Source: Candidatus Polarisedimenticolaceae bacterium (GTDB lineage: Bacteria; Acidobacteriota; Polarisedimenticolia; Polarisedimenticolales; DASRJG01). Taken from it: a DNA stretch of 64,000 bases. The notes under the pieces are model-generated. The model was not told the origin of the DNA. It was given only the letters and a program-made list of their open reading frames with translations, and ran no database searches. The stretch lies in the NCBI GenBank assembly GCA_036275915.1, contig DASUCV010000001.1, forward strand, positions 62,001-126,000. Reading direction: 5' to 3'. The translations under genes and the position numbers were made by a program. Below, piece by piece: positions 3,517 through 19,130 of this stretch (the stretch's first letter is position 1; each line of letters starts with the position of its first letter).

Positions 3517-3526
3517 CCGCCGAGTC

Positions 3527-3532
3527 TACAAT
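3527..3532 (+). promoter_or_regulatory. Candidate -10 element for a leaderless acyltransferase transcript
   Basis: TACAAT, one mismatch from TATAAT, ends 8 bases before the ATG at 3541. A transcript started at the usual 6-8 base distance would begin at or next to the start codon. No convincing -35 is visible and no Shine-Dalgarno fits in the short gap. Confidence 0.35.
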
Positions 3533-3540
3533 GCCGCCAC

Positions 3541-4485
3541 ATGAGCGTCACTGCGGAAGCGCCCCCCCACGCGCCGCGGACGGGGTGGGCCCGCCGCGTC
3601 CTCGGGGACTACCACGTCACGGGGCTCTTCTGGTACCGCTTCCACCGATGGTCGGTCTCCTCCACGCCCGAGTGGACGCTCGGCATCTGGATCACGATCT
3701 TCACGACGTTCTTCTTCTTCACGATCTGGAACATCAGGCGCGCGATCGGCGCCAACCTCGAAAATGTGCTCGGGCCCTGCGGCTTCTTCCGGCGGCAGCG
3801 GCGGATCTACGCGACCATGTGGGCGTTCGCGTGGTGCCTGAGCGAGCGCTACGAGCGCCTCGCGACCGACCGGAAGTTCGACGTCGCGGTCGACGGCATG
3901 GAGCACTGGCAGGCGGCGACCGCGAACGGCCGCGGCTGCGTGCTCGTCACGGCGCACCTCGGCCTCTACGAGGTCGGCTCGATGATGCCGTCGACGGTCG
4001 AGAAGCGGCACGTCCACCTGATCCGCGAGCCGGAGATCGATCCCCGCGCGCAGGAGTTCATCCGCGAGAGTGTCCGCGCGGTCGAGACCGAGCACTATTC
4101 GATGCATTTTCAGAGCGAGGATCCCCTGCAGGGGATGTTCCTCCTCGACGTACTGCGCAGGGGCGAGATCGTCGCCATCCAGGGCGACCGCCCGCGCACC
4201 GGTGGACGCATCGTGCCGGCGACGCTCTTCGGGCGGCCGCTGTCGCTCCCCGCGGGTCCCGCCTCGCTCGCCCGCGCCGCAGGCGTCCCGCTCCTCCCCG
4301 TCTTCGCGATCCGCGAGGGGCGGCGGCGCTACCGCTGCGTCTTCGCGCCGCCAATCGAACCGTGGGGCACGGCCGACCGTCAGCACGAGGTGGCCGAGGC
4401 CACGGCGCGCGTCGGCGAAGCGGTCGAGCGTGCCGTGCGGTCCGCGCCCCACCAGTGGTTCGTGTTCCGCGAGATCTGGAGCTAG
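3541..4485 (+). CDS. LpxL/HtrB-family lipid acyltransferase
   Basis: A 314-residue membrane-associated acyltransferase. A hydrophobic segment (TLGIWITIFTTFFFFTIW) near residue 45 anchors it, and the catalytic HX4E motif appears as AHLGLYE within GRGCVLVTAHLGLYEVGS. AIQGDRPRTGG and the PLSLPAGPASLARAAGVPLLPVF blocks match late lipid A acyltransferases. APE clusters commonly carry such enzymes to acylate the lipid anchor. It is the only plus-strand gene between minus-strand cluster genes; its stop shares bases with the stop of the convergent dehydratase. An upstream in-frame ATG at 3472 would run back into the divergent gene, so 3541 is preferred. Confidence 0.8.
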   Translation: MSVTAEAPPHAPRTGWARRVLGDYHVTGLFWYRFHRWSVSSTPEWTLGIWITIFTTFFFFTIWNIRRAIGANLENVLGPCGFFRRQRRIYATMWAFAWCLSERYERLATDRKFDVAVDGMEHWQAATANGRGCVLVTAHLGLYEVGSMMPSTVEKRHVHLIREPEIDPRAQEFIRESVRAVETEHYSMHFQSEDPLQGMFLLDVLRRGEIVAIQGDRPRTGGRIVPATLFGRPLSLPAGPASLARAAGVPLLPVFAIREGRRRYRCVFAPPIEPWGTADRQHEVAEATARVGEAVERAVRSAPHQWFVFREIWS

Positions 4486-5231
4486 CCGGCGAGCCAGGTT
4501 GCGATCGTCCCGCGTGCGACCGGCTCGCCCTCGGCGACGACCTCGACGGCGTAGTGCGTGAGCGGCGGCACCGCGGCCGTGAGGCGCACCGTCGCGTAGA
4601 GATCGACCTCGACCGGAAGGGACGCCACGTAGAGCGTCACGTCGCGGAGACCGACGAGGTAGCCGAGCTGGATCCCTTCGTCCTCGCCGCGCCGGAGCCG
4701 GCGCAGCGCCTCCCAGACCGCCGCGGTCTGCGCCGCCGCCTCGAGCGCGGCGAGCGCCGGTGCCTCCCCTCCCGCAGCCAGGCCCGAGCCCGCCGGGATG
4801 CGCGCCAGGCAGGTCGCCCCGTCGTCCGCTTCTCCGGCGACGGCGCGCACGAGGCGCGCGGGTCCGCGGTGGAGGAGGAGCCTGTCGAAGGTGGGGACGT
4901 CCTTCGCCCGGCGCGTCGCGACGGCGAACGCCGACGGCGCCGTCGAGCGCGGCGTCCCGAACGCGAGTCGGCCGTTCAAGAGGACGCGGCCTCCGTCACG
5001 CGCGTCGAAGCGGATCGAGCCATCGTCGCGATCGGCGGCGTCGACGTCCAGGGTCGTTCCCGGGGCGACGAGGTCACGGAAGCGGACCGAAGAAACTCCC
5101 GTGAGCGGCCGGCCGTTTCCCAGGGCCGATGCGACCATCGCCAAGGCGGCGACCCCCGGCAGGATCGGTCGCCCCGGAAAATGGCCGTCGAAGATCGGCC
5201 CCGCCGCGGGAACCTCGAGGGCGGCCTTCAC
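4482..5231 (-). CDS. Fused two-hotdog 3-hydroxyacyl-ACP dehydratase (ApeI-like plus ApeP-like)
   Basis: A 249-residue protein with two hotdog-fold halves. Residues 1-95 resemble the FabA/FabZ-like ApeI family, with H17 in FDGHFPGRPILPG. Residues about 112-249 resemble the ApeP dehydratase family: FDRLLLHRGPARLV with H121, an acidic ALEAAAQ helix (E163), and IQLGYLVGLRDV, equivalent to the GFLLGTR segment of ApeP. In studied APE systems these are separate subunits that dehydrate the growing chain. Start is GTG in a GTGA overlap with the upstream methyltransferase. The alternative is one dead and one live domain, but both histidines are present. Confidence 0.7.
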   Translation of the reverse strand: MKAALEVPAAGPIFDGHFPGRPILPGVAALAMVASALGNGRPLTGVSSVRFRDLVAPGTTLDVDAADRDDGSIRFDARDGGRVLLNGRLAFGTPRSTAPSAFAVATRRAKDVPTFDRLLLHRGPARLVRAVAGEADDGATCLARIPAGSGLAAGGEAPALAALEAAAQTAAVWEALRRLRRGEDEGIQLGYLVGLRDVTLYVASLPVEVDLYATVRLTAAVPPLTHYAVEVVAEGEPVARGTIATWLAG

Positions 5232-6400
5232 GCGCGGCGCGCGACGATCGCCGCGATGACGAACGACGGGTAGTCGTCGCGGATCGACGCGACATCCGGG
5301 ACGAAACGGACGTCACGGAAGCCGTGCCGTGTGAGCGCCTCCGTCCACTGCTCGGGGGTCAGGAAGCCCCCGTTCGGGCGCCAGTCCGCGTTCAAGACCG
5401 GGTCGCGGAACGACTCGAGGAGGTTGAACACGAACTCGACGTAGACCGCCTGCCTGGGGAACGGACGCAAGCACTCGCCGGCGACGAGGCTCCCCGTCGG
5501 CGCGAGCGCCTCGCGGATCTCGCCGAGCGTGAAGCTGAGGTCCTTGGCGACGTGGAGCGCGTTGACAGCGAGGACGAGATCGGCCGATCCGCGCTCGACC
5601 CCGGCGTCGCCGAACGGGGCATTCATGTCGAGCCTCGCGAACGAGAGCGCGACTCCCGGAAAGGCGTCCTCGAGCAGCGCCCGCCCGCGCCTCAAGAACG
5701 GTATCGACACTTCGGTGAACCGGTAAGCGATCCGGGAAACGTCGCGGCCGCTCGCGACGAGCCGCCCGCACAGCGCCGCCGCTCCGCTCCCGAGGCCGCC
5801 GCCGATCTCGAGGATGCTTGCGGCGGACGAAGGAAGCACCGCCTCCCCCGCCACCGCGGCGAGCTTGTTGCTGATCGAGTAGATGACGTTGGCGTTCGAG
5901 AAGTACGCCGCCCACGTCGACATGTGCTCGGCCGTGAAGAGGGCGCGCTCGCCGGTGGTCTCGCCCCTGAGAACGGCGGGGTAGCGCTCGGCGGCGAGCG
6001 CCGCGATCGCGAAGGAAGGAAGGGGGCGGGGATCGTGCGCCTCCTGGGCGGCGAGGATCGTCGCGGCATCCTCGGCGTCGTCGCGGACGACGCGGTAACG
6101 GCCCTCACCGGCTTCCGCCAGCCGCCCGCGCGAGGCGAGCATACGGAACATCCAATCGACGGGGACGGTGGCGGCCCGCGGGTCGAGCCCGGCTCGCTCG
6201 ATCGCCTCGGCGACGGTCACCGGCTCGCGGCAGGCCTGGGACAGCCCCGAGCGCGCGAACACGTCGCCGGTCAGGCGGCCGACGTACTCCTCGAAGAGAT
6301 CGCACGAGCGCACGAACGCGTCGTCGAAGAAGGGCAGCAGCTCCGGGGCGAGGTACGACGCACGCTCGTCGATCCCGCGCCGCCGGCTGGTCGTGGGCAT
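5228..6400 (-). CDS. SAM-dependent methyltransferase (PKS-associated type)
   Basis: A 390-residue protein. The first 200 residues are helical with no obvious motif; the Rossmann methyltransferase domain follows with motif I ILEIGGGLGSGAAAL (about residue 215), an acidic SFARLDMNAPF post-motif and DLVLAVNALHVAKDL. The layout resembles methyltransferases that act on carrier-bound polyketides. It overlaps the fused dehydratase by four bases and lies 9 bases downstream of the MMPL exporter, so it belongs to the same operon. It may methylate the aryl head or chain; substrate unknown. Confidence 0.7.
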   Translation of the reverse strand: MPTTSRRRGIDERASYLAPELLPFFDDAFVRSCDLFEEYVGRLTGDVFARSGLSQACREPVTVAEAIERAGLDPRAATVPVDWMFRMLASRGRLAEAGEGRYRVVRDDAEDAATILAAQEAHDPRPLPSFAIAALAAERYPAVLRGETTGERALFTAEHMSTWAAYFSNANVIYSISNKLAAVAGEAVLPSSAASILEIGGGLGSGAAALCGRLVASGRDVSRIAYRFTEVSIPFLRRGRALLEDAFPGVALSFARLDMNAPFGDAGVERGSADLVLAVNALHVAKDLSFTLGEIREALAPTGSLVAGECLRPFPRQAVYVEFVFNLLESFRDPVLNADWRPNGGFLTPEQWTEALTRHGFRDVRFVPDVASIRDDYPSFVIAAIVARRA

Positions 6401-6409
6401 GGCGGGATT

Positions 6410-8908
6410 TTACCGAGAGCCCTTCAGGCGCGCGACGGCCGGCAGCACGACGAGCGTCGCGACGAGGCACAGGAGATTTCCGGTGCAGATGAGGAGGCCC
6501 CCGTTCCGCAGGGCCGGGACGTGGGAGAGCGCGAGCGCGGCGAATCCGGCGCAGGTGGTCAGGTTCGTGAGGACGACGCCGCGGCCGGCGTCCAGCGCCG
6601 CGCGCTCGAGGTCCTCGCCGCGCTGCCGGGCGAGGTGCATGACGTGAAGCCCGTCGTCGACCCCGATCCCGACCATGACCGGCAGGACGCAGAGCGAGAA
6701 GAGATCGAGCGGCAGGCCGAGCGCGCCCCATAAACCCGCGGTCCACGCGGTCCCCAGGACGACCGGGAGGAACGTCAGCGCCGTTGCGGCGACGTTGCCG
6801 CGGTACGAGAACGCGACGAGGCCGAGGACGACGGCGATCGCCAGGCTCCCGAGCCGCTCGAGATCGCGGACGGCGACGTTACGCAGCTCGGCGCCGAGGC
6901 GCTTCGCGTTCGCGACCTTCGCCCCGGGAGCTGCCTTCTCGATCGCGTCGAGAAGGGCGGCCGGCGGTCCCAAGGGCCAGGCGTCCGCCGGCATGCGGAC
7001 CCGCACGGCGACGGCGGTCCCCTGCGGCCCCTCGCGGATCCCGTCGGCGATCCAGTCGGGCCACTTCGCGGGCGCGATCGGCGGCGGCGCCTTCCCGTCC
7101 GCGATGCCGCGGAGGACGTCGAGCGCGGGGTCGAAGGCGTGCACGTTCAAGCCCGCGCCGTCGAGCGCCACGGAGAGTCGCTGCGCCGCGGCGTCGAGCC
7201 CGAGCGGGCGAAGCGCCGCGACGCGCGCCGCGAGCCGGTCGCCCTGCACGAGCCAATCGGACGGCGTCACGATCTCCGCATCCGGGTACCGCTCGCGCAC
7301 GATCGACGCGACCGCGGCGGCCCGGTCGAGGGCTCGATCGACATCCCGCCCCTCGACCGTGATCGTCGACGTGTCGAGGCCGATACCGAAGTCCTTGACG
7401 AGCCGCTCCTCCGCACGCGCGGCGGGATGATCGGACGGCCGGAGTCGCCGCATGTCGGTATCGAGGGACAGCCGAGTTACCCCCACGATCGAGGCGAGCG
7501 TGAGGAGGGCGCACGCCGCGAGCGAAGCCCGCGGGAATCCGCCGCCGGCCCGGACACCCCACGTCACGAACCATCCGAATCCGCGCCACCTTGGAGCGCG
7601 CACGCGCTTCCACAGGCGGGAGACGAGGATCAGCATCGGCCCCGCCGACCAGAACGTCGCGGCGAGCGAGAGCAAGACGCCGACGGCGACGACGAGCCCG
7701 AGCTCCCGGAGCGGCCGGAAGTGCGCGAGCCCGAGGCAGGCGAACGCCATCGCGGTCGTGAACGCGGCGGTCGAGATCCCCGGCCACGTCTCGTCGACCG
7801 TCTGCATCATCGCCGTCCGGGGCTCCTGTCCGGACGCCCAGATCTCCCGGAACCTTGCGCCGAGGTGGATCGTGAAATCGTCGCCGAGGCCGAGCAGGAT
7901 CGCGGCGAACCCGACGCCGACCGCGGTGACGTTGCCGAGCGCGAGCGCGACGAGCGCCGCGCACCAGAGCTGCCCGATCGCAACCGCGGCGATCGAGATC
8001 GCGGGAATCGAGATCCCCTCGAACGCGACGACGATCATGAGGAGGACGACGACGCCCGCTGCGGTGAGGATGCGGACGAGATCGTCCTTCAGCGCCGCCT
8101 CGTCGTGCACCGCGTACAGCGGCCCGCCGATCGCATCGAAGACGAGATCGCCGCCCTGCTCCTTCCGCACCGCCGCGTAGGCCGCATCGAGCGCGGCGCT
8201 GAGCGCCCGGCCCCCTTCGGCGTCGGCCTCGCCGCGCTTCGGGGTCACGACGATGAGCACCGCACGCTGATCCTTCGAGAGGAGAACCCCGGTCACGGGA
8301 TCGAACGGCAGCGCGCTCCCCGGGCTGAGCCCGCGAAGGCCGTGCTCGGCGAGCCCGAGAGGGTCGGCGGAGGCGATCGACGAGAGGAAGAGCGCCGCCG
8401 GCCCCTCCGCCGCGTCGCGCAGCGCGTCGACGCGCGCCGCGAGAGCGCCGGGCGTCGTCGCGGCCGCGACGGACTCCGGGGCGTGCTCGCCGAGAAGGAG
8501 CGGGAGGCGCGGCGCGAGCTCCGCCGTGGCGAACGCCTCGTCCGAGGCGTCGAGCGCGTAACGGACGCGCGCCACCTCGGGCGAGGCCGCGAGCGCGTCG
8601 GCGAGAGTCTCCGCGGCATCGGCGAGACGATCCGGGTCGGCGGGAACGCCGTCGGGCAGGCGGATCGTCACGTAAGCGCGCTCGATGCCGCCGAACGTGC
8701 CCAGGAAGGCGCGGTACGCCTCGGCGGCCGGAGTCCCGTTGGGGAGCATCGCCTCGACGTCGCTCCGGATCCCGAGGCGCGCCGCCGGCCAGAGCGAGAC
8801 GGCGGCGAGCAAGCAGCCGATCGCGAGCGTGAGCCGGGGGCGCATCGCGATCGAGCGCGCGAGCCGGCTGGGCGAGCTTCCGCTCACGTCAGGCGGTGCT
8901 TCCGGCAT
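6410..8908 (-). CDS. MMPL/RND-superfamily exporter of the aryl-polyene cluster
   Basis: An 832-residue transporter with the two-fold RND layout: one transmembrane helix near residue 28, a large extracytoplasmic loop, five helices around residues 270-450, a second loop, and five C-terminal helices. GLGDDFTIHLGARFREIW and GIGVDDGLHVMHLARQRG are the two paired GxxxDxxxH-like helix-4 segments typical of MMPL and hopanoid-type exporters. APE clusters contain such a pump, thought to move the polyene lipid out of the inner membrane. The ATG at 8908 overlaps the ketoreductase gene end by 20 bases. Energy coupling by proton motive force is family knowledge. Confidence 0.85.
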   Translation of the reverse strand: MPEAPPDVSGSSPSRLARSIAMRPRLTLAIGCLLAAVSLWPAARLGIRSDVEAMLPNGTPAAEAYRAFLGTFGGIERAYVTIRLPDGVPADPDRLADAAETLADALAASPEVARVRYALDASDEAFATAELAPRLPLLLGEHAPESVAAATTPGALAARVDALRDAAEGPAALFLSSIASADPLGLAEHGLRGLSPGSALPFDPVTGVLLSKDQRAVLIVVTPKRGEADAEGGRALSAALDAAYAAVRKEQGGDLVFDAIGGPLYAVHDEAALKDDLVRILTAAGVVVLLMIVVAFEGISIPAISIAAVAIGQLWCAALVALALGNVTAVGVGFAAILLGLGDDFTIHLGARFREIWASGQEPRTAMMQTVDETWPGISTAAFTTAMAFACLGLAHFRPLRELGLVVAVGVLLSLAATFWSAGPMLILVSRLWKRVRAPRWRGFGWFVTWGVRAGGGFPRASLAACALLTLASIVGVTRLSLDTDMRRLRPSDHPAARAEERLVKDFGIGLDTSTITVEGRDVDRALDRAAAVASIVRERYPDAEIVTPSDWLVQGDRLAARVAALRPLGLDAAAQRLSVALDGAGLNVHAFDPALDVLRGIADGKAPPPIAPAKWPDWIADGIREGPQGTAVAVRVRMPADAWPLGPPAALLDAIEKAAPGAKVANAKRLGAELRNVAVRDLERLGSLAIAVVLGLVAFSYRGNVAATALTFLPVVLGTAWTAGLWGALGLPLDLFSLCVLPVMVGIGVDDGLHVMHLARQRGEDLERAALDAGRGVVLTNLTTCAGFAALALSHVPALRNGGLLICTGNLLCLVATLVVLPAVARLKGSR

Positions 8909-9614
8909 CGACGAGGAACGATTGCCCGGTGATCGCGCGCGCCTCGTCGGAGAGGAGGAAGACGATCGTCGCCGCCACGTCCTCGGGGAGAGTCCCCGAA
9001 GGGAGCGCCTCGATCGCGCGCAGGGCCTGGAGCTTCTCCGGCGGCGCGTCCGCGACCATCTCGGTCATGACGAGACCCGGCACCACGGCGTTGACGCGCA
9101 CGCTCCGCCGTCCCAGCTCCCGCGCGAGCGACTTCGTCATGCCGATGAGACCGGCCTTCGCCGCGCCGTACGCCGCCTGCCCCGCGACACCCCGCACCGC
9201 CGTGAGCGACGACACGTTGACGATGCTCCCACGGCGCCTCGAGATCATTCCCGGGATGACCGCGCGGCAGCAGCGGAACGCCGCGCCCAAGTCCGCGTCG
9301 AGGATCGCATCCCAGTCGGCGTCGGCGGTCGTGGCGAGGAGGCCGTCCCGACGAATCGCCGCGTTGTTGACGAGGCCGTCGATCGGACCGAGCGCGGCCT
9401 CGATCTCCGGCACGAGGTCGCCCGGACGCGTACGATCGGCGAGGTCGTAGCGCCAGGCGAGCGCGTGACCGTTCGCCGCCTCGACGATCGCGCGCGCGTC
9501 GTCCTCGCGCTGTCGATAGGTGAAGGCGACGCGGCGACCGGCGGCGAGCAGCGTTCTGACGACGGCGCGGCCGATGCCGCGTGTCCCCCCCGTGACCAGA
9601 ACGGTGCCGTTCAT
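8889..9614 (-). CDS. 3-oxoacyl-ACP reductase (FabG/ApeQ-like)
   Basis: A 241-residue short-chain dehydrogenase. The NADPH-binding motif VTGGTRGIG is at residues 8-16, LVNNAA at 81-86, and the catalytic S136-Y149-K153 set lies in SSLTAV and YGAAK. It ends with the standard ITGQSFLVDAGST segment. It would reduce the keto group after each elongation in polyene assembly. The ATG at 9614 overlaps the glycosyltransferase stop in ATGA; an apparent longer reading frame through the glycosyltransferase is out of frame with it. High similarity to housekeeping FabG is expected; context assigns it to the cluster. Confidence 0.88.
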   Translation of the reverse strand: MNGTVLVTGGTRGIGRAVVRTLLAAGRRVAFTYRQREDDARAIVEAANGHALAWRYDLADRTRPGDLVPEIEAALGPIDGLVNNAAIRRDGLLATTADADWDAILDADLGAAFRCCRAVIPGMISRRRGSIVNVSSLTAVRGVAGQAAYGAAKAGLIGMTKSLARELGRRSVRVNAVVPGLVMTEMVADAPPEKLQALRAIEALPSGTLPEDVAATIVFLLSDEARAITGQSFLVDAGSTA

Positions 9615-10315
9615 CCGCGTCCCTCGAATCGCGCGCGCGCCACGGCTCCTGCGATCCGCATCGAGTCGACGACCGGCCTGTAGTGGCTCGTCGCCCGGCC
9701 GTCCGGCTCGTCGAGCCGGATCGGGATCCCGATGATACGGAACCCGTGACGGACCGCGCGAACGATCACCGCGCTCTCCGCCTCGAAGCGCGCCTCGGGA
9801 AACCCGACCGCCGCGATCAGCTCGCGCGTGTAGAGGCGGAAGCCGGTTTGGCAATCGGGCAGCGAGGCGCCGGCGACGTGCGAGATGAGCCACGACGAGG
9901 TCCCGTTCGACGCGCGCCGGACCGCGCTCATCTTGGCGAAGAGATGGTCGCGGGTGCCGAGGACGAGGTCGGCGCCGTCGCGCCATGCGTCGATGAGCCT
10001 GGGCGTCTCCTCGGGCGGATGCTGGCCGTCGGCGTCGACCGTGACGACCGCGTCGAACCCGGCTCCGAAGAGATGATCGAACGCCGTCTTGAGCGCGCGT
10101 CCCTTGCCGAAGTTCTCCGGGTGCACGAGCACGCTCACACCCGCGGCGCGTGCCGCGTCGCCGGTGCCGTCGGTCGAGCCGTCGTCGACGACGATCACGT
10201 GGGCATGCACGGCGAGCGCGCGTCGAATGACCGCGGGGACTGTGGCCGCCGCGTCGAGCGCAGGGATCGCGATCGCGAAACGCCGGCCGCTCACGCCCGC
10301 TCCAGGACCGCCCAT
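9611..10315 (-). CDS. Family 2 glycosyltransferase
   Basis: A 234-residue GT-A enzyme: FAIAIPALDAAATVP start, nucleotide-sugar site IVVDDGSTDGTGD, then VVTVDADGQHPPEE with the metal-binding DxD and DCQTGFRLY further on, as in dolichyl-phosphate-mannose-synthase-like GT2 proteins. It probably adds a sugar to the polyene lipid or its anchor. Two starts are possible: ATG at 10315 behind GGGGGGAG, or GTG at 10294 in a GTGA overlap with the upstream gene; the ATG is reported. No C-terminal membrane domain is present. Sugar donor is unknown. Confidence 0.8.
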   Translation of the reverse strand: MGGPGAGVSGRRFAIAIPALDAAATVPAVIRRALAVHAHVIVVDDGSTDGTGDAARAAGVSVLVHPENFGKGRALKTAFDHLFGAGFDAVVTVDADGQHPPEETPRLIDAWRDGADLVLGTRDHLFAKMSAVRRASNGTSSWLISHVAGASLPDCQTGFRLYTRELIAAVGFPEARFEAESAVIVRAVRHGFRIIGIPIRLDEPDGRATSHYRPVVDSMRIAGAVARARFEGRG

Positions 10316-11487
10316 GCGGCCGCTCCCCCCGCGGCGAGCGAGGACGCGAGGATCCGCGCGGGGCGCGGAAAGCGGCTCCCGTCGTGCGGCATGACCAGGA
10401 GCTCGGGATCGGGCGAGCGGAAGCCGGCGACCGGTCCGAACGACGCTCCCGCGAGGGCGAGCAGGCCGCCGGAGAGAACGCCTCCGGCGTACTCGCCGAC
10501 GACCGCTTTCGGAACGAGAACCGGCGGCAGCGCGCCGCCGTCCCATCCGCTGCGGAGAACGAGCGCCTCGAGCCGGTCCCCTCGCCGGGTCCCCGATGCT
10601 CCCGAGACGATCGCGTCGATCGGCCCGAGCGTTTCTCGCATGACGCGGAGGCGGCGGCCGAGGCCGTCCGCACCGTCGCCCCAGTCGCTCGGGGTGGCGG
10701 TGGGGTCGAACGCCGACGCCGACCCGGCGATCCGTGCGAGCGGGGATGCGCCGCGCGCCGTCGCGTCGGCCTCGCGCTCGAGGACGAGCATCGTCGCGCC
10801 CTCCCCCGCGAGCATCCCGTCACGGTCGCGGTCGAAGGGCCTAGGCGATTCGCCTTCGGCGCGGGTCGTCGCGCGATAGCGATCGAGAATCGCGTGGAGG
10901 AGCGGCGTCATCTCGTCGGCGGATCCGACGATCGCGACGTCGGCCCGTCCCTCGCCGACTTCCTGCGCTCCCCGCGCCAGGGCGATGAGCGGCCCCGCCT
11001 CGCGCTGCGTCACCGTCACGTTGGCGCCGGATGCGCCGAGCGCGATCGCGACCTGGCCGGCCGCGGCGTTCGCGACGCACTCCGAGAAGTAGAACGGCTG
11101 CGCCGCCTCGGGGCCCTCATCCAGGAGCTGCCTCACGAGCTTCTCGGTGTAATGGACGGCGCCGAACGCGGTCGCGAGGAAGACCGCGGCACGCTTCCCC
11201 TGGAGATCGGCGAGCCCGGCCTCCGCGAGCGCCATGCGGCTCGCCGCGACGGCCCATCGCGACGGCTTGCCGAGGCGTCGCGCCTGCGAAGGCGGCAGCC
11301 AGGCGCCGAGGTCGGCGGCACCGACCGCTGCGGCGAGGCGCGATCCTGCGCCGTCGTGGAACCCTTCCGACCGGTCGACCGCGCTCGCCAGCGGCTCGCC
11401 TCGGGCGAATGCCGCCGCGAGAGCCTCCCTCCCGACGCCGTGAGGGCCGACCGCGCCGAGCCCGGTCACGACCACCCGCGGGCTCAC
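10291..11487 (-). CDS. Chain-length-factor-like ketosynthase (inactive KS, ApeC-like)
   Basis: A 398-residue thiolase-fold protein that aligns along its length with FabF-type ketosynthases but lacks all catalytic residues. The active-site cysteine region reads VTVTQREAGPL (residues 157-167), with Glu where Cys is expected. The HGTGT loop is replaced by SGASGT, and the final KxxxGH region reads PKAVVGEYAG, keeping only the lysine. Such KS-beta subunits pair with an active KS and set chain length; in APE systems the equivalent is ApeC. It starts with GTG in a GTGA overlap with the active KS gene. Confidence 0.85.
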   Translation of the reverse strand: MSPRVVVTGLGAVGPHGVGREALAAAFARGEPLASAVDRSEGFHDGAGSRLAAAVGAADLGAWLPPSQARRLGKPSRWAVAASRMALAEAGLADLQGKRAAVFLATAFGAVHYTEKLVRQLLDEGPEAAQPFYFSECVANAAAGQVAIALGASGANVTVTQREAGPLIALARGAQEVGEGRADVAIVGSADEMTPLLHAILDRYRATTRAEGESPRPFDRDRDGMLAGEGATMLVLEREADATARGASPLARIAGSASAFDPTATPSDWGDGADGLGRRLRVMRETLGPIDAIVSGASGTRRGDRLEALVLRSGWDGGALPPVLVPKAVVGEYAGGVLSGGLLALAGASFGPVAGFRSPDPELLVMPHDGSRFPRPARILASSLAAGGAAAWAVLERA

Positions 11488-12722
11488 GCGGCCTCGTCGT
11501 GCCGCAGGACCAGCGCGGCGTTGGCGCCCCCGAAGGCGAGGCTCGTCGAGAGGGCACAGCCGGCGCGCCGAAGCGGACGGTGCCGCCCGAGGACGAGATC
11601 GAGCCCGAGCGCGGCGTCCGGATCTCCGGCAGGCGGCATCGGGTGGACCTCACGGCGCACGAGGCACATCACCGTGACGAGAGCCTCGACCGCACCGGCC
11701 GAGCCGAGGAGGTGCCCGATCGACGCCTTCGTGGAAGTGACCGGAATCGCCGGAACGCGATCACCGAACACGGCCTGGAGCGCGGCCGCCTCCGCCGCGT
11801 CGTTGAGCGGTGTCCCGGTCCCGTGGGCGTTGACGAAGTCGACCTCCGCGGGCGTCGCACCGGCGTCCTCGAGCGCGAGCCGCATCGCGCGCGCGGCCCC
11901 GTGTCCTTGCGGCTGCGGCGCCGTCATGTGGAACGCATCGCACGTCGCCGCTTCGCCGGCCACCGTCGCGAGGACCCGCGCGCCGCGAGAGAGGGCCCGG
12001 GCGCGCCGCTCCAGGACGAGCACCCCGGCGCCTTCGCCGATCGAGAGGCCCGCGCGATCGGCGCGGAACGGACGCGACGGGCGCTCGTCGACCGAGCGCA
12101 GCGCGTTGAACCCGGCGTAGGTGAGCTGGCACAGCGCGTCGGACGCGCCGGCGACGGCGAGATCGACCTCGCCCCGGCGGAGAGCCCGCAGCGCGGCGCC
12201 GATCGCGATCGCGCCGGAGGCGCAGGCGGAGGAGAACGTCTCGCTCGGACCTTGAGCCCCGATCTCGCGCGCGACGGCGTCACCCGGGCCGTTGAGCTGC
12301 TGGCTGGCCAGGAGACCCGGGCGCGCGCGGTGCCTCGGGTCGTGGAGAAGGCGCTCGTAGTAACGCTCGCTCTCGAGCATCCCGCCCGTGGAGCTGCCGA
12401 AGAAGACGCCGGTCATCGGCCCCGAGGCGGCCCCTTCGAGCCCGGCCATGCGGAGCGCCTCGCGGACGCTCTCGACCGCGAACCGGTCGGCGAAACTTGA
12501 CCGGCGCTCGTAACGCGCGCCCGCGGGCGAAGGCGGGACCTGCGCCGCGAGTCGCGTGCGGTGACGTGTCGCATCGAAGCGGGAGAAAGGAGCGATCGCG
12601 CCCGCGCCTTCGCGCAGACCGTCCCACAGCGGGTCGACTCCCCAGCCGTATGCGGTGACGGCGCCGAGCCCGGTGACGACGATGTCCGCGGATGTGGGAA
12701 CGCTGCGCTCAGCTCCGGACAT
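11484..12722 (-). CDS. 3-oxoacyl-ACP synthase, active subunit (ApeO/FabF-like)
   Basis: A 412-residue ketosynthase with the full catalytic set: C167 in SSACASGAIAIG, H300 in NAHGTGTPLND, K332 and H337 in TKASIGHLLGSAG. It would condense malonyl-ACP with the growing chain, working as a heterodimer with the adjacent inactive partner. The reading frame stays open upstream through the ACP gene; the ATG at 12722 gives the standard family start (IVVTGLGAVTAYG within 20 residues). It overlaps the ACP gene by 14 bases. Confidence 0.9.
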   Translation of the reverse strand: MSGAERSVPTSADIVVTGLGAVTAYGWGVDPLWDGLREGAGAIAPFSRFDATRHRTRLAAQVPPSPAGARYERRSSFADRFAVESVREALRMAGLEGAASGPMTGVFFGSSTGGMLESERYYERLLHDPRHRARPGLLASQQLNGPGDAVAREIGAQGPSETFSSACASGAIAIGAALRALRRGEVDLAVAGASDALCQLTYAGFNALRSVDERPSRPFRADRAGLSIGEGAGVLVLERRARALSRGARVLATVAGEAATCDAFHMTAPQPQGHGAARAMRLALEDAGATPAEVDFVNAHGTGTPLNDAAEAAALQAVFGDRVPAIPVTSTKASIGHLLGSAGAVEALVTVMCLVRREVHPMPPAGDPDAALGLDLVLGRHRPLRRAGCALSTSLAFGGANAALVLRHDEAA

Positions 12723-12999
12723 GAGCGTCGTCCGCCGTCTGGAGACGGCCGTCGACGTACGCGGCGAGCGTGGCGACCGAGCCGAAGGCCTCCCTGCCGA
12801 CCTCGTGGCTCTGGATGCGGAGACTGAACTCTTTCTCCAAGGCCACGACGAGCTCGAGCGCATCGACGGAATCGAGGCCGAGCCCTTCGCCGAACAGAGG
12901 CATCTGGTCGTCGATGGTCTCCGGCGAGAGGCCGTCCAGGTGGAGCTTTTCGACCAGGAGCTGCTTGATCCTTTGAGCTGTGGTCGCGTCGTTCGGCAT
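12709..12999 (-). CDS. Acyl carrier protein
   Basis: A 96-residue ACP with the phosphopantetheine attachment motif LGLDSVDALEL (Ser44), flanked by the usual helices (QRIKQLLVEKL and LVVALEKEF). It carries intermediates for the adjacent KS pair. It is the first gene of the long minus-strand operon and lies 59 bases from the divergent ligase gene, so the operon promoter should be in that gap. An ATG at 12999 starts the conserved fold; the slightly longer frame adds residues not seen in ACPs. Confidence 0.92.
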   Translation of the reverse strand: MPNDATTAQRIKQLLVEKLHLDGLSPETIDDQMPLFGEGLGLDSVDALELVVALEKEFSLRIQSHEVGREAFGSVATLAAYVDGRLQTADDAHVRS

Positions 13000-13058
13000 A
13001 ATGGATCCGTGAGCGGGCTCGGAGGCGGCAGAGCTTAGCACACGCGGGCCTCCCCAAG
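13000..13058. promoter_or_regulatory. Divergent promoter region between ACP operon and ligase operon
   Basis: This 59-base gap is the only space for promoters of both arms of the cluster. On the minus strand a weak TTGGGG-16-TAAGCT pair can be drawn; the -10 sits in a small palindrome AGCTTAGC. Shared regulation of both arms is inferred from the arrangement. Confidence 0.35.
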
Positions 13059-14444
13059 ATGACGAACGATCCGATCCTCAGCACCTTCGACGAGCTCGCG
13101 CGGCGCCGTGGCGATGCACCGCTCGTCGCCTCTCCGACGACCAAGGCGACCCGAGCGGAGATTCACGCCCTTTCGCTCGCCGTCGCGCGCGACATCGAGC
13201 ACAGCGCCGCGCCGCCCGGAGGCTACGTCCTCCTCGCCTCTGCGAACGGCGCGGGCTTTCTCGGCGCCCTCCTCGGCATCGTCCGCGCCGGCCGCGTTCC
13301 CGTACTCGCCGACTGGAGCGCCCCTCCGGGAGAGCGCGAGCGGATCGCGGAAGCGCTCGGCATCGCGGCAGGAGTTGCCTGCGATCTCGCCTTCCCCACG
13401 CGCGAGACCGCGCCCCGGACCTTTGCGTTCGGCCGGCCGGCGGCCTCGCCCCCGCCCGCCGCCGGCTGCGTGAAGATGACCTCGGGCTCGAGCGGGACTC
13501 CCGCGGGAATCGCGACGACGACCGAAGCGCTCGCGATCGACGACGATCAGATCGCGACGACGATGGGGATCGGCGCCGACGACCGGCTCCTCGCCGAGAT
13601 TCCGTGGTCGCACTCGTATGCGCTCTCGTCGGCCGTCGTGCCGGCGCTCAGGCGCGGGCTCCTCCTCGTCCTCGCCGACACCGGCGGTCCGTGGGGACCC
13701 CTCGACGCCGGCCGCGTCCTCGAGGCCACCGTCTTTCCGACGGTCCCCATCTACCTGCACGCGATCGCCGCGCTTGCGGAGACACCGGAGTGGCCGCGGA
13801 CGATCCGGACGCTGATCTCGGCGGGCGCGCCGCTGCGACCCGAGACCGCGGCGCGGTTCGAGGAGGCCTTCGGAATCCGCGCTCATGTTTTCTACGGCGC
13901 CTCGGAGTGCGGCGGGATCTGCTACGACCGCGAGGGAGGCGCCGCGCTCCGCGGGACGGTGGGCACACCGCTTGCCGGGGTGACGGTGACGCTCCACGAG
14001 ACGGGCCTGCGCGTCACCTCGGGGGCGGTCGGGTCGGGCTACGTGCCAGTCCCGCGCGACGAGCTCCACGGCGGCGCCTTCTTCGCCGCCGATCTCGCCG
14101 CGTGGACTCCGTCGGGCGAGCTTCGCCTCCTCGGCCGGGCGGACGCGCTCATCAACGTCGGCGGCAAGAAGGTCCATCCCGCGGAGATCGAGAGCGTGCT
14201 GCGGGCGATGCCGGGCGTACGCGACGTCGCGGTGTTCGGGCTCGAGGCGCCCGGCTGCCGCGAGATCGTCCGTGCGGTCGTCGCGTGCGATCCGACGCGC
14301 ACGACCTACGACGCAGTGACCGCGTGGTGCCGCGCACGTCTCGCGCCGCACAAGGTGCCGCGCAGCGTCCAGCTCGTCGACGAGATTCCGAGGAACGCCC
14401 GCGGCAAGATCGATCGCGCGGCCCTCACCCCCGTCGTCGAATGA
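13059..14444 (+). CDS. AMP-dependent acyl/aryl ligase
   Basis: A 461-residue ANL-superfamily enzyme. The ATP-binding loop reads KMTSGSSGTPAG (about residue 144), followed by HVFYGASECGGICYD, a GGKKVHPAEIESVL hinge region, and the terminal catalytic lysine motif NARGKIDRAAL. It is shorter than most acyl-CoA synthetases in its N-terminal half. In APE clusters the equivalent enzyme (ApeH-like) activates 4-hydroxybenzoate for loading on the ACP; here the substrate is inferred from context. It is the first gene of the plus-strand arm and its stop overlaps the deacetylase ATG in ATGA. Confidence 0.82.
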   Translation: MTNDPILSTFDELARRRGDAPLVASPTTKATRAEIHALSLAVARDIEHSAAPPGGYVLLASANGAGFLGALLGIVRAGRVPVLADWSAPPGERERIAEALGIAAGVACDLAFPTRETAPRTFAFGRPAASPPPAAGCVKMTSGSSGTPAGIATTTEALAIDDDQIATTMGIGADDRLLAEIPWSHSYALSSAVVPALRRGLLLVLADTGGPWGPLDAGRVLEATVFPTVPIYLHAIAALAETPEWPRTIRTLISAGAPLRPETAARFEEAFGIRAHVFYGASECGGICYDREGGAALRGTVGTPLAGVTVTLHETGLRVTSGAVGSGYVPVPRDELHGGAFFAADLAAWTPSGELRLLGRADALINVGGKKVHPAEIESVLRAMPGVRDVAVFGLEAPGCREIVRAVVACDPTRTTYDAVTAWCRARLAPHKVPRSVQLVDEIPRNARGKIDRAALTPVVE

Positions 14445-15223
14445 CGGCGGCGGCGCGTCCTCGTCCCGCCCCGCTCGTCGCGACGTCCCTCGCCCTCCAC
14501 GCCGCCGCGGTTCCGGCCGCCGCGCTCGCGCCGCGGTTCTGGCCGTGGATCGTCGGCACGCTCGTGACCGACCACCTCGCGATCCTCGGGGGCGGTTTGG
14601 CCCCGCGGAGCGCGCTCCTCGGCCCGAACGTCGTACGCTCTTCCGCGGCGGCGGCAATGAATGGTGTCGTCCTGACATTCGACGACGGCCCGGACCCGGC
14701 GGTGACCCCCAAGATCCTCGACCGGCTCGACGCGGCCGGTGCCAAGGCGACGTTCTTCGTCATCGGCGAGCGCGCTCGCCGCTTCGGCGAGCTCGCGGCC
14801 GAGATCGCGAGACGCGGCCACCGCCTCGAGAACCACACCGAGCACCACCGCGGCGGCTTCTACTTCCACCGGCCCGCGACCCTGCGGCGTGAGATCGACG
14901 CGTGCCAGGAGGCGGTCGTGCGGGCGTGCGGACGCGCGCCCGTGTTCTTCCGCGCGCCGGCGGGGATCCGCAGTCCTCTCGTGGGAAGCGCGCTCGCCAG
15001 GAGCGGCCTCACCCTCGTCTCATGGACGCGCCGTGGATTCGACACGGTCGATCGCCGCCCGGAGCGCGTGGCGGCGCGGCTCCTCCGCGATCTCGCCGCG
15101 GGGGACATCCTCGTGCTCCACGACACCGCGGCGGCGCCCGCGGTGCTCGAGACGCTGCCCCGTCTCCTCGATCGCATCGGTGGCGCCGGCCTCCGCCCCG
15201 TGCCGCTTCCCGATCCGAGCTAG
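14441..15223 (+). CDS. Membrane-anchored polysaccharide deacetylase (NodB family)
   Basis: A 260-residue protein with one or two N-terminal membrane segments (residues 11-50) and then a NodB domain: catalytic Asp pair in LTFDDGPDP, the metal-binding HTEHH segment, FRAPAGIRSP, LVSWTRRGFDT and the final ILVLHDT motif. Family members remove N-acetyl or O-acetyl groups from sugars using a divalent metal. Together with the glycosyltransferase it suggests that the cluster makes and deacetylates an amino sugar, perhaps on the pigment anchor; this is inference. The start is fixed by the ATGA overlap with the ligase. Confidence 0.8.
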   Translation: MTAAARPRPAPLVATSLALHAAAVPAAALAPRFWPWIVGTLVTDHLAILGGGLAPRSALLGPNVVRSSAAAAMNGVVLTFDDGPDPAVTPKILDRLDAAGAKATFFVIGERARRFGELAAEIARRGHRLENHTEHHRGGFYFHRPATLRREIDACQEAVVRACGRAPVFFRAPAGIRSPLVGSALARSGLTLVSWTRRGFDTVDRRPERVAARLLRDLAAGDILVLHDTAAAPAVLETLPRLLDRIGGAGLRPVPLPDPS

Positions 15224-15229
15224 CGCGCG

Positions 15230-15901
15230 GTGGACGACGCGTCGTTCCGGCGTCTCGTCGATCGGACCGCGCGCCGTTACGTGGCGTCGGGCCGCTTCGC
15301 GATGGGCATGGCCCGCGGGAAGCTCGCCGGCGACCCGGTCTACCGCGCGCTCCTCGAGCGCGGGATCGCCGAGTCCCCTTCGCTCTCCGATCTGGGGTGC
15401 GGACGTGGGCTTCTTCTGGCGCTAGTCCTCGAAGCGGCGGACGGCCGCACGCCTCCCGCTCTCACCGGCGTCGAGGTCGGCGGGTCGCTCGCCCGGCAGG
15501 CGCAGGCCGCGTGCGGTGCCGCCGCGACGATTTCCATCCAGGATCTCGCCACGGCGCCGCCGGTCCCTGCCACCGTGTTCGCAGCGATCGACGTGCTGCA
15601 CTACCTCGCCTCGGTCGACCAGGACCGCCTCCTCGAGCGGATCGCCCGGGTGCTCCCGCCGCGCGGACGGCTCTTCGTCCGGGAGGCGGACGGCGGCGCG
15701 GGCGCGGGCTTCCGCGCGGTCCAGGCGAGCGAGCGTTTCTTCGCGCTCCTTCGAGGAGAGGGCCGGCGCCCCTTCGCCTACCGCTCGGCGGAGGACTGGC
15801 GGCGGCGGCTGGAGTTGCTCGGCTTGGCCGTCGAGGTCACGCCCATGGGTGCGGGGACGCCGTTCCGGAACGTGCTGCTCGAAGCCCGCGCCTCGGCTTG
15901 A
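15230..15901 (+). CDS. Small class I SAM-dependent methyltransferase
   Basis: A 223-residue methyltransferase: motif I SDLGCGRGLLLALVLEA (about residue 53), acidic LTGVEVGG, then VFAAIDVLHYLASVDQD and a LPPRGRLFVRE motif. It starts with GTG six bases after the deacetylase stop. Similar small methyltransferases occur in APE clusters, but its exact target is unknown. Third methyltransferase of the cluster; its stop codon lies within a perfect TTGACA box that probably drives the next operon. Confidence 0.75.
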   Translation: MDDASFRRLVDRTARRYVASGRFAMGMARGKLAGDPVYRALLERGIAESPSLSDLGCGRGLLLALVLEAADGRTPPALTGVEVGGSLARQAQAACGAAATISIQDLATAPPVPATVFAAIDVLHYLASVDQDRLLERIARVLPPRGRLFVREADGGAGAGFRAVQASERFFALLRGEGRRPFAYRSAEDWRRRLELLGLAVEVTPMGAGTPFRNVLLEARASA

Positions 15902-15962: not shown

Positions 15963-18077
15963 ATGAAGTCGGCCAGGCTCGCGGCGGGCGCGTTCGCGCT
16001 CGCGCTCGTCGCCGGTCCCGCGGCCGCGGCGACGAACTGGTACGTCGCGACGACCGGCACCGACTCGCCGACGTGCGGCACGACGACCTCTCCCTGCAAG
16101 ACGATCCAGCATGCGATCGACCTCACCGACGACGGCGATACGGTGATCGTGGCCACCGGTACGTACGCGGAATGCATCGTCGTGGTGCCCGGCACCGGCC
16201 CCGGCGCGATCACGCTGGTCGCCGCGGGCTATCAGACGGGGAGCACTCCGGGCCTGGCCGTGCTCGACGGCACGGGCGTCTGCGACGTCGCAAGCGCGGC
16301 CCCCGGACCGGTCGTCACCGTCAACGACCTCAGCACGGTGTCGGGGTTCGGGATCATTAACGGCGGGCGGTCGGGTGTCCGTGGCCTGGGCGCGGTGACG
16401 ATCTCCTTCAACATCATCTCGGGCAACACGACCGACGGGAACGGCGGCGGCGTCTCTCTCACGACCGGCTCGTTCCTCACCGACCCGACGAAGTCGGCAC
16501 TCATCGGATCCAACTCGATCCACGACAACACCGCGCAGGGAGACGGCGGCGGCGTCTTCGTCGACGCATCCGCGGCGGGCGTGGCGAGCGTCGCGACGGT
16601 CGACACGAACGGCGTCTTCGGGAACACGGCGGGATCGGCGGGCGGCTTCGCGTTCACCGCGCACGGCGGCGGGATCGCCGTCATCACCGACACCGCGAGC
16701 GATACCGACACGTCGACGGTCGCCGTCACCGGCAACTCCGTCCACGACAACACAGTCAAGAGCCCGACCGGCGGCGCGATCTCGACCGGCGGCGGCATCT
16801 TCGTGCGGACTGCCGGCATCAACGGCCTCGGCACGGAATCCGTGACGGTGGGCGGCACCGGAACGGCGGTGAACGCCGTGCGTCTCAACACGTCCGAAGG
16901 GATCGGCGGCGGCATCTCCGTCGTGATGGCGCCGCGCGACGGAGCGGCCGACACGATCACGGTCGTGGGAAACGACGTCTCCGTCAACACCGGGCGTCTC
17001 GGAGGCGGCGGCATCCACGCCCAGACGATCGCGTCGGACCTGAGCACCGGCACGAGCGCGCTCCACCTCGACGCGAACATGATCATCGGGAACTTCGCCC
17101 AGAGTCGTCCCGCGGATCCCGCGGCCGTCGGAGGCGGCGGCCTCTACCTCGACGCCTCGAGCTTTCGCAGCGCCTCCGGCTTGCTCGCGCTCGACCTGAC
17201 GAAGAACCAGATTCGCGGCAACCACACGATCGTCTTCGGCGCGGGAGCGACGCTCAGTCTCTTCGCGAACGACGATCCGCAGGACGACGGCGCGACCGCC
17301 CCGTCGGCCGTCGCGCTCACCTTCGAGAACAACCTCATCGCGACCAACGATGGCGGCACCGCCGGCACGGCGTTCGGCGGCGGGGTCGCCGTCTTCGCAC
17401 GCTCGCGAGGCGCGCAATCGACGGTCACCGCCACGCAGCGTTTCCTCACGGTCGAAGCGAACGTCGCGCCCGCGGGCGCCGGCGGCATCGATTGGAGCGC
17501 GCTCTCCGAGGCCGACTCGATCGGCGGCGTCGGCGCGATCGCGCTCGAGCTCTCGAACTCGATCGTGCAGGGGAACGACGGGTTCGGCGTCGGCGGGTCG
17601 GTCGTCCCCGGAGGCGCGATCACGACGACGGTCGCGTACAACGACGCGCTCGGCAACGTCGCCGGCGATTACGCACCGGGGCTCGGCGCTTCGAGCGGAA
17701 CGAACGGCAACATCTCGGTCGATCCCGGCCTCGACACCCTCTACGTGCCGCTCCTCTGCTCGCTCACGATCGATGCCGGCGATCCCGCGCTCTCGCCCGC
17801 GAACGAGCCGGAGCCGAACGGGAACCGGGTCAACATCGGCCATCTCGGCAATTCGATCGATGCGGCGCGGACCCTGCCCGACGTCAACGGCGACGGCGTC
17901 GTCGACGGCCTCGACGTGATGGGCATCGCCGTCTCCTTCAACGCCGCAAGCGGCGATCCTCGCTATTTCGCCGCCGCCGACCGCGACTTCTCCGGTCTCA
18001 TCGACGGCGACGATCTCGCCTACGTCGCGGCGTTCTTCGCGCAGAGCTGTACCGCTCCGACAGGGAGTACCCCGTGA
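15963..18077 (+). CDS. Secreted right-handed beta-helix protein with C-terminal dockerin domain
   Basis: A 704-residue protein with a signal peptide (residues 1-22, ending AAAA). An early AIDLTDDGDTVIVATGTY segment starts a parallel beta-helix. From about residue 150 to 500 some eight repeats of N-rich turns ending GGGV or GGGI occur (GNTTDGNGGGVSL, HDNTAQGDGGGVFV), like polymorphic outer-membrane/Pmp repeats. Residues about 640-700 form a type I dockerin: two calcium loops, DVNGDGVVDGLD and DRDFSGLIDGDD, each followed by a helix. Dockerins bind cohesins, and a cohesin-like lipoprotein is encoded next with a GTGA overlap. The ATG at 15963 is chosen because the upstream frame lies in the methyltransferase gene. 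Confidence 0.85.
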   Translation: MKSARLAAGAFALALVAGPAAAATNWYVATTGTDSPTCGTTTSPCKTIQHAIDLTDDGDTVIVATGTYAECIVVVPGTGPGAITLVAAGYQTGSTPGLAVLDGTGVCDVASAAPGPVVTVNDLSTVSGFGIINGGRSGVRGLGAVTISFNIISGNTTDGNGGGVSLTTGSFLTDPTKSALIGSNSIHDNTAQGDGGGVFVDASAAGVASVATVDTNGVFGNTAGSAGGFAFTAHGGGIAVITDTASDTDTSTVAVTGNSVHDNTVKSPTGGAISTGGGIFVRTAGINGLGTESVTVGGTGTAVNAVRLNTSEGIGGGISVVMAPRDGAADTITVVGNDVSVNTGRLGGGGIHAQTIASDLSTGTSALHLDANMIIGNFAQSRPADPAAVGGGGLYLDASSFRSASGLLALDLTKNQIRGNHTIVFGAGATLSLFANDDPQDDGATAPSAVALTFENNLIATNDGGTAGTAFGGGVAVFARSRGAQSTVTATQRFLTVEANVAPAGAGGIDWSALSEADSIGGVGAIALELSNSIVQGNDGFGVGGSVVPGGAITTTVAYNDALGNVAGDYAPGLGASSGTNGNISVDPGLDTLYVPLLCSLTIDAGDPALSPANEPEPNGNRVNIGHLGNSIDAARTLPDVNGDGVVDGLDVMGIAVSFNAASGDPRYFAAADRDFSGLIDGDDLAYVAAFFAQSCTAPTGSTP

Positions 18078-18661
18078 CGATCCGACTTCCTCTGTTGGCC
18101 GCCGTCCTGACGGTGCTCGTGACGGCCTGTGGCGGCTCGTCGACGTCGACCACCTCGGCGCCCAGCGCGCATTTCACCGCGGACACTCCGTCCCCCGGTC
18201 CCTACACCGTCGCGCTCGCCCATGCCTCGGCGAACGGCGCCGCGGTCACGATCAAGGTCACCGTCACCGGCGTGCCGAGCTTCTTCGGCGCCGCGTTTCA
18301 TATCACCTACGACCCGGACGCCCTCCTGTTCGGAAGCTGGGACTACAGCTCGTCGTTCTTGTCACAAGGACTGGTCTCGCCGGGCGACGTCTTTTTCAGC
18401 GAGGACCACACGACGATCGGCGGCACCATGGTCGTCGTCGCCACCCGGGTCGATCCCACGGTCGAGTCCCCGGTCGACGTCACGACGACGTCGACGCTGT
18501 TCACGGTCACCTTCATTGCGCGCAAGGCGATCGCCGCGGGCGCCGCCGACGGTCGCGTCGACTTCGGCGATCCGAAGCAGGTGTGCGACGGGACCGTCAA
18601 TCCTCCCGGCTGCAACCCGATCACCGTCACCTGGTCCGGCGGCGGCCTGTCCGCCAAGTAA
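18074..18661 (+). CDS. Cohesin-domain lipoprotein
   Basis: A 195-residue lipoprotein: signal peptide with lipobox VLVTAC (Cys about 19), a short Ser/Thr-rich linker, then one cohesin-like beta-sandwich (about residues 45-190) with the typical GVPSFFGAAFHITYDPDALLF block, where the family shows a glycine-rich strand followed by YDP and a hydrophobic residue. Being lipid-anchored, it would display a dockerin receptor on the membrane surface. GTG start in a GTGA overlap with the dockerin gene. Assignment as cohesin rests on these motifs; other carbohydrate-binding or Ig-like folds are possible. Confidence 0.7.
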   Translation: MTIRLPLLAAVLTVLVTACGGSSTSTTSAPSAHFTADTPSPGPYTVALAHASANGAAVTIKVTVTGVPSFFGAAFHITYDPDALLFGSWDYSSSFLSQGLVSPGDVFFSEDHTTIGGTMVVVATRVDPTVESPVDVTTTSTLFTVTFIARKAIAAGAADGRVDFGDPKQVCDGTVNPPGCNPITVTWSGGGLSAK

Positions 18662-18671
18662 AGGAGCGGAG

Positions 18672-19130
18672 ATGTCGGGCGTCGTTCTTCCCGCGCTGAT
18701 CCTGAGGTGGTGTCACATCGTTCCGGCGGTCGTCGCCGGCGGTGCGACCGTCTACACCTTTCTCGCGCTGATCCCCGCGCTCGGCGAGCTCCCCGCGGCC
18801 GAGGCTGCACGCCTCCGCGAGGCGGTCGTCCGCCGCTGGCGCGTGGTGTTCATGGTGTGCGTGACGCTGCTGCTCGCGAGCGGACTCCTGAACTTCCTGT
18901 TGTACCAATCTCCCGCGCACCGCGGACAGGCCCTGTACCACGGCATCTTCGGCATCAAGTTCCTCGCCGCGCTCGTGGTGTTCTTCCTTGGATCCGCGCT
19001 CACCGGCCGCTCCGCCGCGCTCGCGCAGATCCGCGCGAACGCGCGCTTCTGGACGGGCGTCAGCGCGGCGCTCGTGATCCTGATCGTTCTGCTGTCGGGG
19101 ATCCTTCGCGGAATTCCCGCGGCGAACTGA
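18672..19130 (+). CDS. Four-helix integral membrane protein (CopD-like)
   Basis: A 152-residue protein with about four hydrophobic helices (residues 5-30, 55-75, 85-108, 125-147) and conserved-looking residues LRWCHIVPAVVAGGATVY at the N-terminus and a central YHGIFGIKFL. This resembles CopD/DUF-type small membrane proteins with histidines that may bind heme or metal, but the family is not certain. A strong AAGGAG site lies six bases before the ATG. It follows the cohesin gene by 10 bases and may be cotranscribed; a functional link is not evident. Confidence 0.65.
   Translation: MSGVVLPALILRWCHIVPAVVAGGATVYTFLALIPALGELPAAEAARLREAVVRRWRVVFMVCVTLLLASGLLNFLLYQSPAHRGQALYHGIFGIKFLAALVVFFLGSALTGRSAALAQIRANARFWTGVSAALVILIVLLSGILRGIPAAN

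Follow-up and report, generated by a model that had tools for sequence, protein, structure and literature searches.

A dockerin-bearing beta-helix protein and a single-cohesin lipoprotein as a candidate scaffold-free membrane anchor

Introduction

What cohesins and dockerins do where there is no cellulosome is a question that has been standing for decades. Among the closest described systems are cohesin and dockerin modules of the noncellulosomal type (Peer et al., 2009, cited in PMC9012536), which are reported as single cohesins and dockerins in a non-cellulolytic setting with no multi-cohesin scaffoldin. A noncellulosomal cohesin-dockerin system has also been reported for Saccharophagus (PMC2386152). 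ANME archaea and their sulfate-reducing partners have cohesin/dockerin adhesins according to excerpts of two papers (PMC9012536, PMC10553843), one of which mentions adjacent cohesin and dockerin domains in Hot-Seep1 (PMC10553843). In the clostridial cellulosome (CipA cohesin with type I dockerin), both modules are present together with single-cohesin surface anchors. Candidatus Stygibacter, a diderm, has secreted enzymes that are tagged with dockerins and anchored through cohesins (PMC8542988).

Here we describe a pair of adjacent genes in a 64,000-nucleotide stretch of DNA (hereafter the window) from a Candidatus Polarisedimenticolaceae bacterium. The first gene encodes a secreted beta-helix protein with a C-terminal dockerin and the second a lipoprotein with one cohesin, the putative receptor. 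The locus shares with the noncellulosomal modules the use of a single cohesin and a single dockerin; compared with what is reported of those modules, it differs in that the predicted receptor stands alone as a lipoprotein whose gene shares an operon with that of the dockerin partner, an arrangement conserved class-wide and beyond. Like the ANME and partner adhesins, at least as excerpted, it combines cohesin and dockerin proteins in a context unrelated to cellulose degradation, but the ANME proteins include chains resembling scaffoldins that carry as many as five cohesins, and the excerpts describe no lipoprotein as a dedicated receptor (PMC9012536, PMC10553843). The Stygibacter complex is built instead on one scaffoldin of 3,755 aa that has cohesins in tandem and a sorting domain at its C-terminus (PMC8542988). 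In contrast to the clostridial cellulosome, the window system has no scaffoldin, SLH domain or carbohydrate-binding module, and where the clostridial anchor is a cell-wall anchor, that of the window is a diderm lipoprotein. The difference from the known systems lies in a minimal lipoprotein receptor that is paired one-to-one with its partner, retained in an operon throughout the class and seen again across the phylum. We found no description of such an operon in a literature search that had subscription papers mostly outside its scope.

Results and discussion

A secreted beta-helix protein with a C-terminal dockerin

The first gene (15963..18077, plus strand) runs from an ATG at 15963 to a TGA that ends at 18077 and encodes a protein of 704 aa, an assignment that rests on the open reading frame and on orthologues. 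The precursor starts with a signal peptide recognised by eye, MKSARLAAGAFALALVAGPAAAA (residues 1-23, 15963..16031), which is followed in the AlphaFold2 model by a right-handed parallel beta-helix spanning approximately residues 24-568 (16032..17666). The pLDDT is mostly 75-95 up to precursor residue 568, and the model thus supports the predicted beta-helix fold. In a Foldseek search with the beta-helix, the best rows were beta-helix lyases, hydrolases and autotransporters; all were weak, with no row below E 1e-3, and we therefore claim no enzyme activity. A Pfam scan detected no named enzyme domain in this protein. As a guess, the beta-helix might bind or process extracellular or envelope polysaccharide.

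The dockerin domain occupies residues 640-689 (17880..18029), where Dockerin_1 (PF00404) scored 24.0 bits, just above its gathering score of 22.9; in a genome-wide Pfam search the same domain scored 28.4 bits. It reached 86.7 bits against profile A3, which includes the window dockerin; profiles A1 and A3 and the local HMMs were built with window sequences, so that the window's own scores against them follow by construction. With phmmer, the 704-aa protein matched the solved dockerin 2y3n_B (E 8e-7). Both 12-residue calcium-type loops are complete, DVNGDGVVDGLD (17880..17915) and DRDFSGLIDGDD (17979..18014), and the oxygen ligands at positions 1, 3, 5, 9 and 12 are present, giving the two duplicated loops characteristic of PF00404. 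The ligand columns are largely conserved across alignment A3. The full-length model cannot be relied on for the dockerin, whose pLDDT is ~35. With a signal peptide, a PF00404 score over the cut-off and both loops intact, the protein is what an earlier note on this DNA had taken it to be, a secreted beta-helix protein that ends in a two-loop dockerin.

An overlapping gene for a cohesin lipoprotein

The second gene (18074..18661, plus strand) encodes a protein of 195 aa and, as the same note had read, is joined to the first by a GTGA overlap: its GTG start at 18074 shares four bases with the TGA ending at 18077 (18074..18077), and this is the only lipoprotein start that fits. Among relatives, the junction between the dockerin and lipoprotein genes varies from an overlap to a gap (-4 to ~+105 bases). 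The lipoprotein signal peptide ends in the lipobox LVTAC with Cys19 (18074..18130), followed by GGSST. This reading was made by eye and the lipobox is kept in relatives; the Pfam lipobox model LPAM_1 stayed below its cut-off (11.5 vs 20). The Cohesin family (PF00963) matched residues 51-156 (18224..18541) with 30.6 bits against a cut-off of 24.1, and the fold match extends over residues 42-195, so a single cohesin takes up nearly all of the mature protein. The lipoprotein with one cohesin-like domain that the note proposed is thereby borne out, as is the HMM check that it named, since dockerin and cohesin each exceed their Pfam gathering cut-off.

A model of the mature lipoprotein, calculated from 19 relatives, has a pLDDT of 81 and the nine-strand jelly-roll fold of cohesins. 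Its top structural matches are all cohesins (Z 13.4 to 9; best Foldseek E 4e-5), led by 6kgc_A with a Z of 13.4 over 135 residues and an rmsd of 2.6 (VIA-align). They include the anchoring scaffoldins 3ul4 (OlpA, Z 12.4) and 4dh2 (OlpC, Z 11.7) and the archaeal noncellulosomal cohesin 2xdh from Archaeoglobus fulgidus (Z 11.5). When genome contigs were searched with the lipoprotein as a single sequence, the only match, to Streptomyces, was weak (34%, residues 4-79) and was set aside.

The organism is a diderm, with LptD and a secretin present in its genome. The lipobox Cys of the window protein is followed by Gly at position +2, which by the E. coli rule speaks against retention in the inner membrane, although that rule may not apply in this organism. 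The protein is probably located on the outer membrane, with the periplasmic and the outer face equally compatible.

The pair is a conserved genetic unit

Linkage was examined in 41 genomes of the class, which contain 99 cohesin and 94 dockerin places as judged by Pfam. Cohesin and dockerin places lie at most 3 kb apart in 22 cases compared with 0.5 expected, and in 21 of the 22 the dockerin precedes the cohesin or both reside within one chain. The pairing of dockerin and cohesin is not chance. At the loci inspected, the recurrent unit consists of two genes, one for a dockerin protein and then one for a cohesin lipoprotein of ~200 aa, and the head of the dockerin protein varies. FN3-TIG heads account for ~17 pairs (Pfam), kelch, TSP3 or similar heads for four, and a GDSL hydrolase head for two (G104 and G123). 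The beta-helix head is found in eight pairs, the window included (G000, G029, G030, G031, G032:C30, G033, G035:C43 and G036:C80). Several of the genomes are incomplete, and a place scored as unpaired may reflect a contig break.

Full-length dockerin-bearing beta-helix orthologues occur in seven of the nine other genomes of the order. In a separate search of the order with an alignment of the beta-helix, all eight full-length beta-helix-dockerin orthologues had a cohesin lipoprotein directly downstream. The other window genes between 13059 and 23417 were unmatched in the five neighbouring loci tested (~1-3 kb of flank each), and the pair therefore travels as its own unit.

A different arrangement was observed at loci L089, L100 and L101 (G024:C29, G012:C195 and G017:C51), which encode long chains with a cohesin and a degenerate dockerin of a different type that has the motif SYDAxLIAQ. 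Such chains are often encoded in tandem genes and could polymerise or cross-link.

Dockerins and cohesins diverge in matched lineages

In a tree of 64 cohesin domains, the cohesins sort largely by the head of the partner protein (12 label changes compared with a shuffled mean of 37), and the secretin cohesins form one separate clade with a support of 100/99. The dockerin tree, which is short of columns, places the beta-helix dockerins on one branch (99/98) along with the dockerin of G032:C241 and one long-branched FN3 row. The G032:C241 dockerin protein is only 102 aa long, with no beta-helix and little beyond a signal peptide and the dockerin; its dockerin and its cohesin both group with the beta-helix type.

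Dockerin and cohesin distances are correlated across 27 pairs (r = 0.72), and none of 5000 global partner shuffles rose above 0.27. For the six genomes that have two pairs each, the true partners were the best of all 64 swaps. Matched distances are what cognate pairs would predict; co-inherited duplicated operons could give the same result without specificity.

Downstream of the short dockerin protein (L077, G032:C241) lies the gene for a long protein with an N-terminal cohesin, a lipase/acyltransferase-like region (PGILGS) and no clear lipobox.

Other dockerins and cohesins in the genome

The search for further dockerins that the earlier note had suggested gave four more matches, one of them weak, in the assembly of 4.53 Mb and 24 contigs. 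Pfam recognises four dockerins in all, that of the window and those on contigs C11, C8 and C10. The C11 protein has reprolysin-like metalloprotease matches just below the cut-off, an HEXXH motif and TSP3; the C8 protein has TSP3 and is propeller-like, with a propeller match below the cut-off; and the C10 protein has a glucose/sorbosone dehydrogenase (GSDH) domain. The fifth, weak match, to a protein of 617 aa on contig C4, came from a class-specific profile. The three strong dockerins that are unlinked to a cohesin (C8, C10 and C11) have a different motif in common, GRVDGxDLAxLGRAFG.

Only two cohesins were found with Pfam, one in the window lipoprotein and one at the C-terminal end of a GspD-like secretin. 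A profile based on relatives added two cohesin-like lipoproteins that Pfam missed, on contigs C15 (L135 4599-5237, plus strand) and C9 (L136 3791-4642, minus strand). No dockerin was found near either of these, and in the cohesin tree both sit in the clade of cohesins paired with kelch/TSP3 proteins. The lipoproteins on C15 and C9, or another partner, are more likely receptors for the strong unlinked dockerins than the window cohesin is.

Neither Pfam nor profile A1 detected a multi-cohesin scaffoldin in the organism's own genome, where all cohesin proteins have a single cohesin; cohesin and dockerin thus occur in one genome without a scaffoldin, as in noncellulosomal systems. No plant-cell-wall hydrolase was recognised by Pfam on the dockerin proteins of the window, C8, C10 and C11. 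Because there is no scaffoldin and no recognised plant-wall hydrolase on the proteins scanned, the window system is not a cellulosome.

The secretin on contig C4 (L040 5457-7931, minus strand) has its C-terminal cohesin after a Pro/Gly-rich linker and adjoins GspC/PilP-like and pseudopilin-like genes. Secretins of this architecture are found repeatedly across the phylum, and our literature search, which covered few subscription papers, turned up no report of a cohesin on a secretin.

Cohesin lipoproteins co-occur with dockerins across the phylum

Co-occurrence was evaluated in 220 genomes of the phylum outside the class, using matches above the search thresholds. Cohesins were counted as lipoprotein-type when the profile match reached the lipobox in a short ORF, and were sorted by hand. 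A Pfam dockerin is present in all 16 genomes with a lipoprotein-type cohesin and in 49 of the 204 others (Fisher p 8e-10, uncorrected for relatedness; the 16 genomes represent six families, so that independence is overstated). For families f26, f54 and f74, the single dockerin protein that was inspected proved to be a GDSL hydrolase without linkage to the cohesin lipoprotein; the cohesins of these families group with those of G104 and G123, where the GDSL pairs are linked.

A dedicated anchor and its alternatives

We consider it probable that the pair constitutes a dedicated plug-and-socket membrane anchor with one cargo, one receptor and no scaffoldin. The first gene would give rise to an exported beta-helix protein with a C-terminal dockerin, presumably folded by calcium. 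The dockerin would bind the single cohesin of the lipoprotein from the overlapping gene, presumably in a calcium-dependent way, and the lipidated Cys19 together with a short flexible linker would hold the beta-helix protein on the outer membrane. Of the scaffold-free docking that the earlier note envisaged, the part that linkage, matched lineages and co-occurrence strongly back is the putative tether between the dockerin and the neighbouring cohesin. The marginal dockerin score, the low pLDDT of the dockerin and the weak enzyme match of the beta-helix were counted against an anchor. We conclude that the anchor is a minimal version, spread across the phylum, of the noncellulosomal cohesin-dockerin systems already known.

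The lipoprotein might instead serve every dockerin protein of the cell as a common receptor, whether its partner is the metalloprotease, the propeller, the GSDH or the beta-helix protein, in the manner of an anchoring scaffoldin with one socket. The four further dockerin matches elsewhere in the genome would fit such a role, as would the observation that no protein other than the window lipoprotein and the secretin exceeds the cohesin cut-off of Pfam. We find a shared receptor unlikely, given that the three strong unlinked dockerins have the other motif and fall outside the well-supported branch of the window dockerin, and that the cohesin-like lipoproteins on C15 and C9 are better candidate receptors for them. 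It is also conceivable, but in our estimate very unlikely, that the genes are co-inherited after binding was lost, with the cohesin-like domain serving as a beta-sandwich that is structural or binds carbohydrate, and the dockerin as a calcium-stabilised C-terminal cap. Cohesin folds do look like carbohydrate-binding sandwiches, and the dockerin score is marginal; however, calcium loops are retained in the orthologues of both proteins, unlinked partners co-occur, and divergence is matched by partner type.

The least probable of the alternatives is that the secretin is the true receptor, so that dockerins would be tags directing exported proteins to the type II secretion gate, with the lipoprotein in an accessory role. 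The GspD-like ORF on C4 (824 aa) matches both Secretin (127.8 bits) and Cohesin (29.2 bits) and is followed by a pseudopilin-like gene, secretin-type cohesins are found across the phylum, and G001, G011 and G021 are among the dockerin-bearing genomes in which the secretin cohesin was the sole cohesin from the profile search. Nevertheless, secretin-type cohesins do not track dockerins, which occur in 11 of the 53 genomes that have such a cohesin and in 54 of the 167 that lack one; the co-occurrence test thus gave no support to the secretin as a dockerin receptor. Moreover, the secretin cohesins separate as a clade of their own, and the window dockerin has a linked cohesin. That the secretin cohesin does not follow dockerins raises a second testable question.

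A dedicated anchor would explain why diderms without cellulosomes retain cohesins and dockerins. We give roughly even chances to the broader reading of a phylum-wide anchor family with private sockets, several orthogonal pairs per cell and a dockerin-cohesin unit that is swapped between unrelated heads (beta-helix, FN3-TIG, kelch/TSP3, GDSL hydrolase, or none). If true, such a family would be a diderm counterpart to sortase/SLH anchoring, made from cellulosome parts. The minimal one-to-one operon, with its several matched lineages, lends itself to a small direct experimental test with two purified domains and would supply protein assembly with orthogonal cohesin-dockerin pairs of natural origin.

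Genes flanking the pair

Directly downstream of the lipoprotein gene, 18672-19130 (plus strand) encodes a small membrane protein that is weakly DUF2269/CopD-like, below the cut-off, and for which no match was found in the neighbouring loci of five relatives. Upstream of the pair, positions 1460-15901 of the window encode two ketosynthases, a ketoreductase, an MMPL exporter, a halogenase-like FAD enzyme, methyltransferases and an AMP-ligase, a set reminiscent of the clusters for aryl polyenes or similar polyketide pigments.
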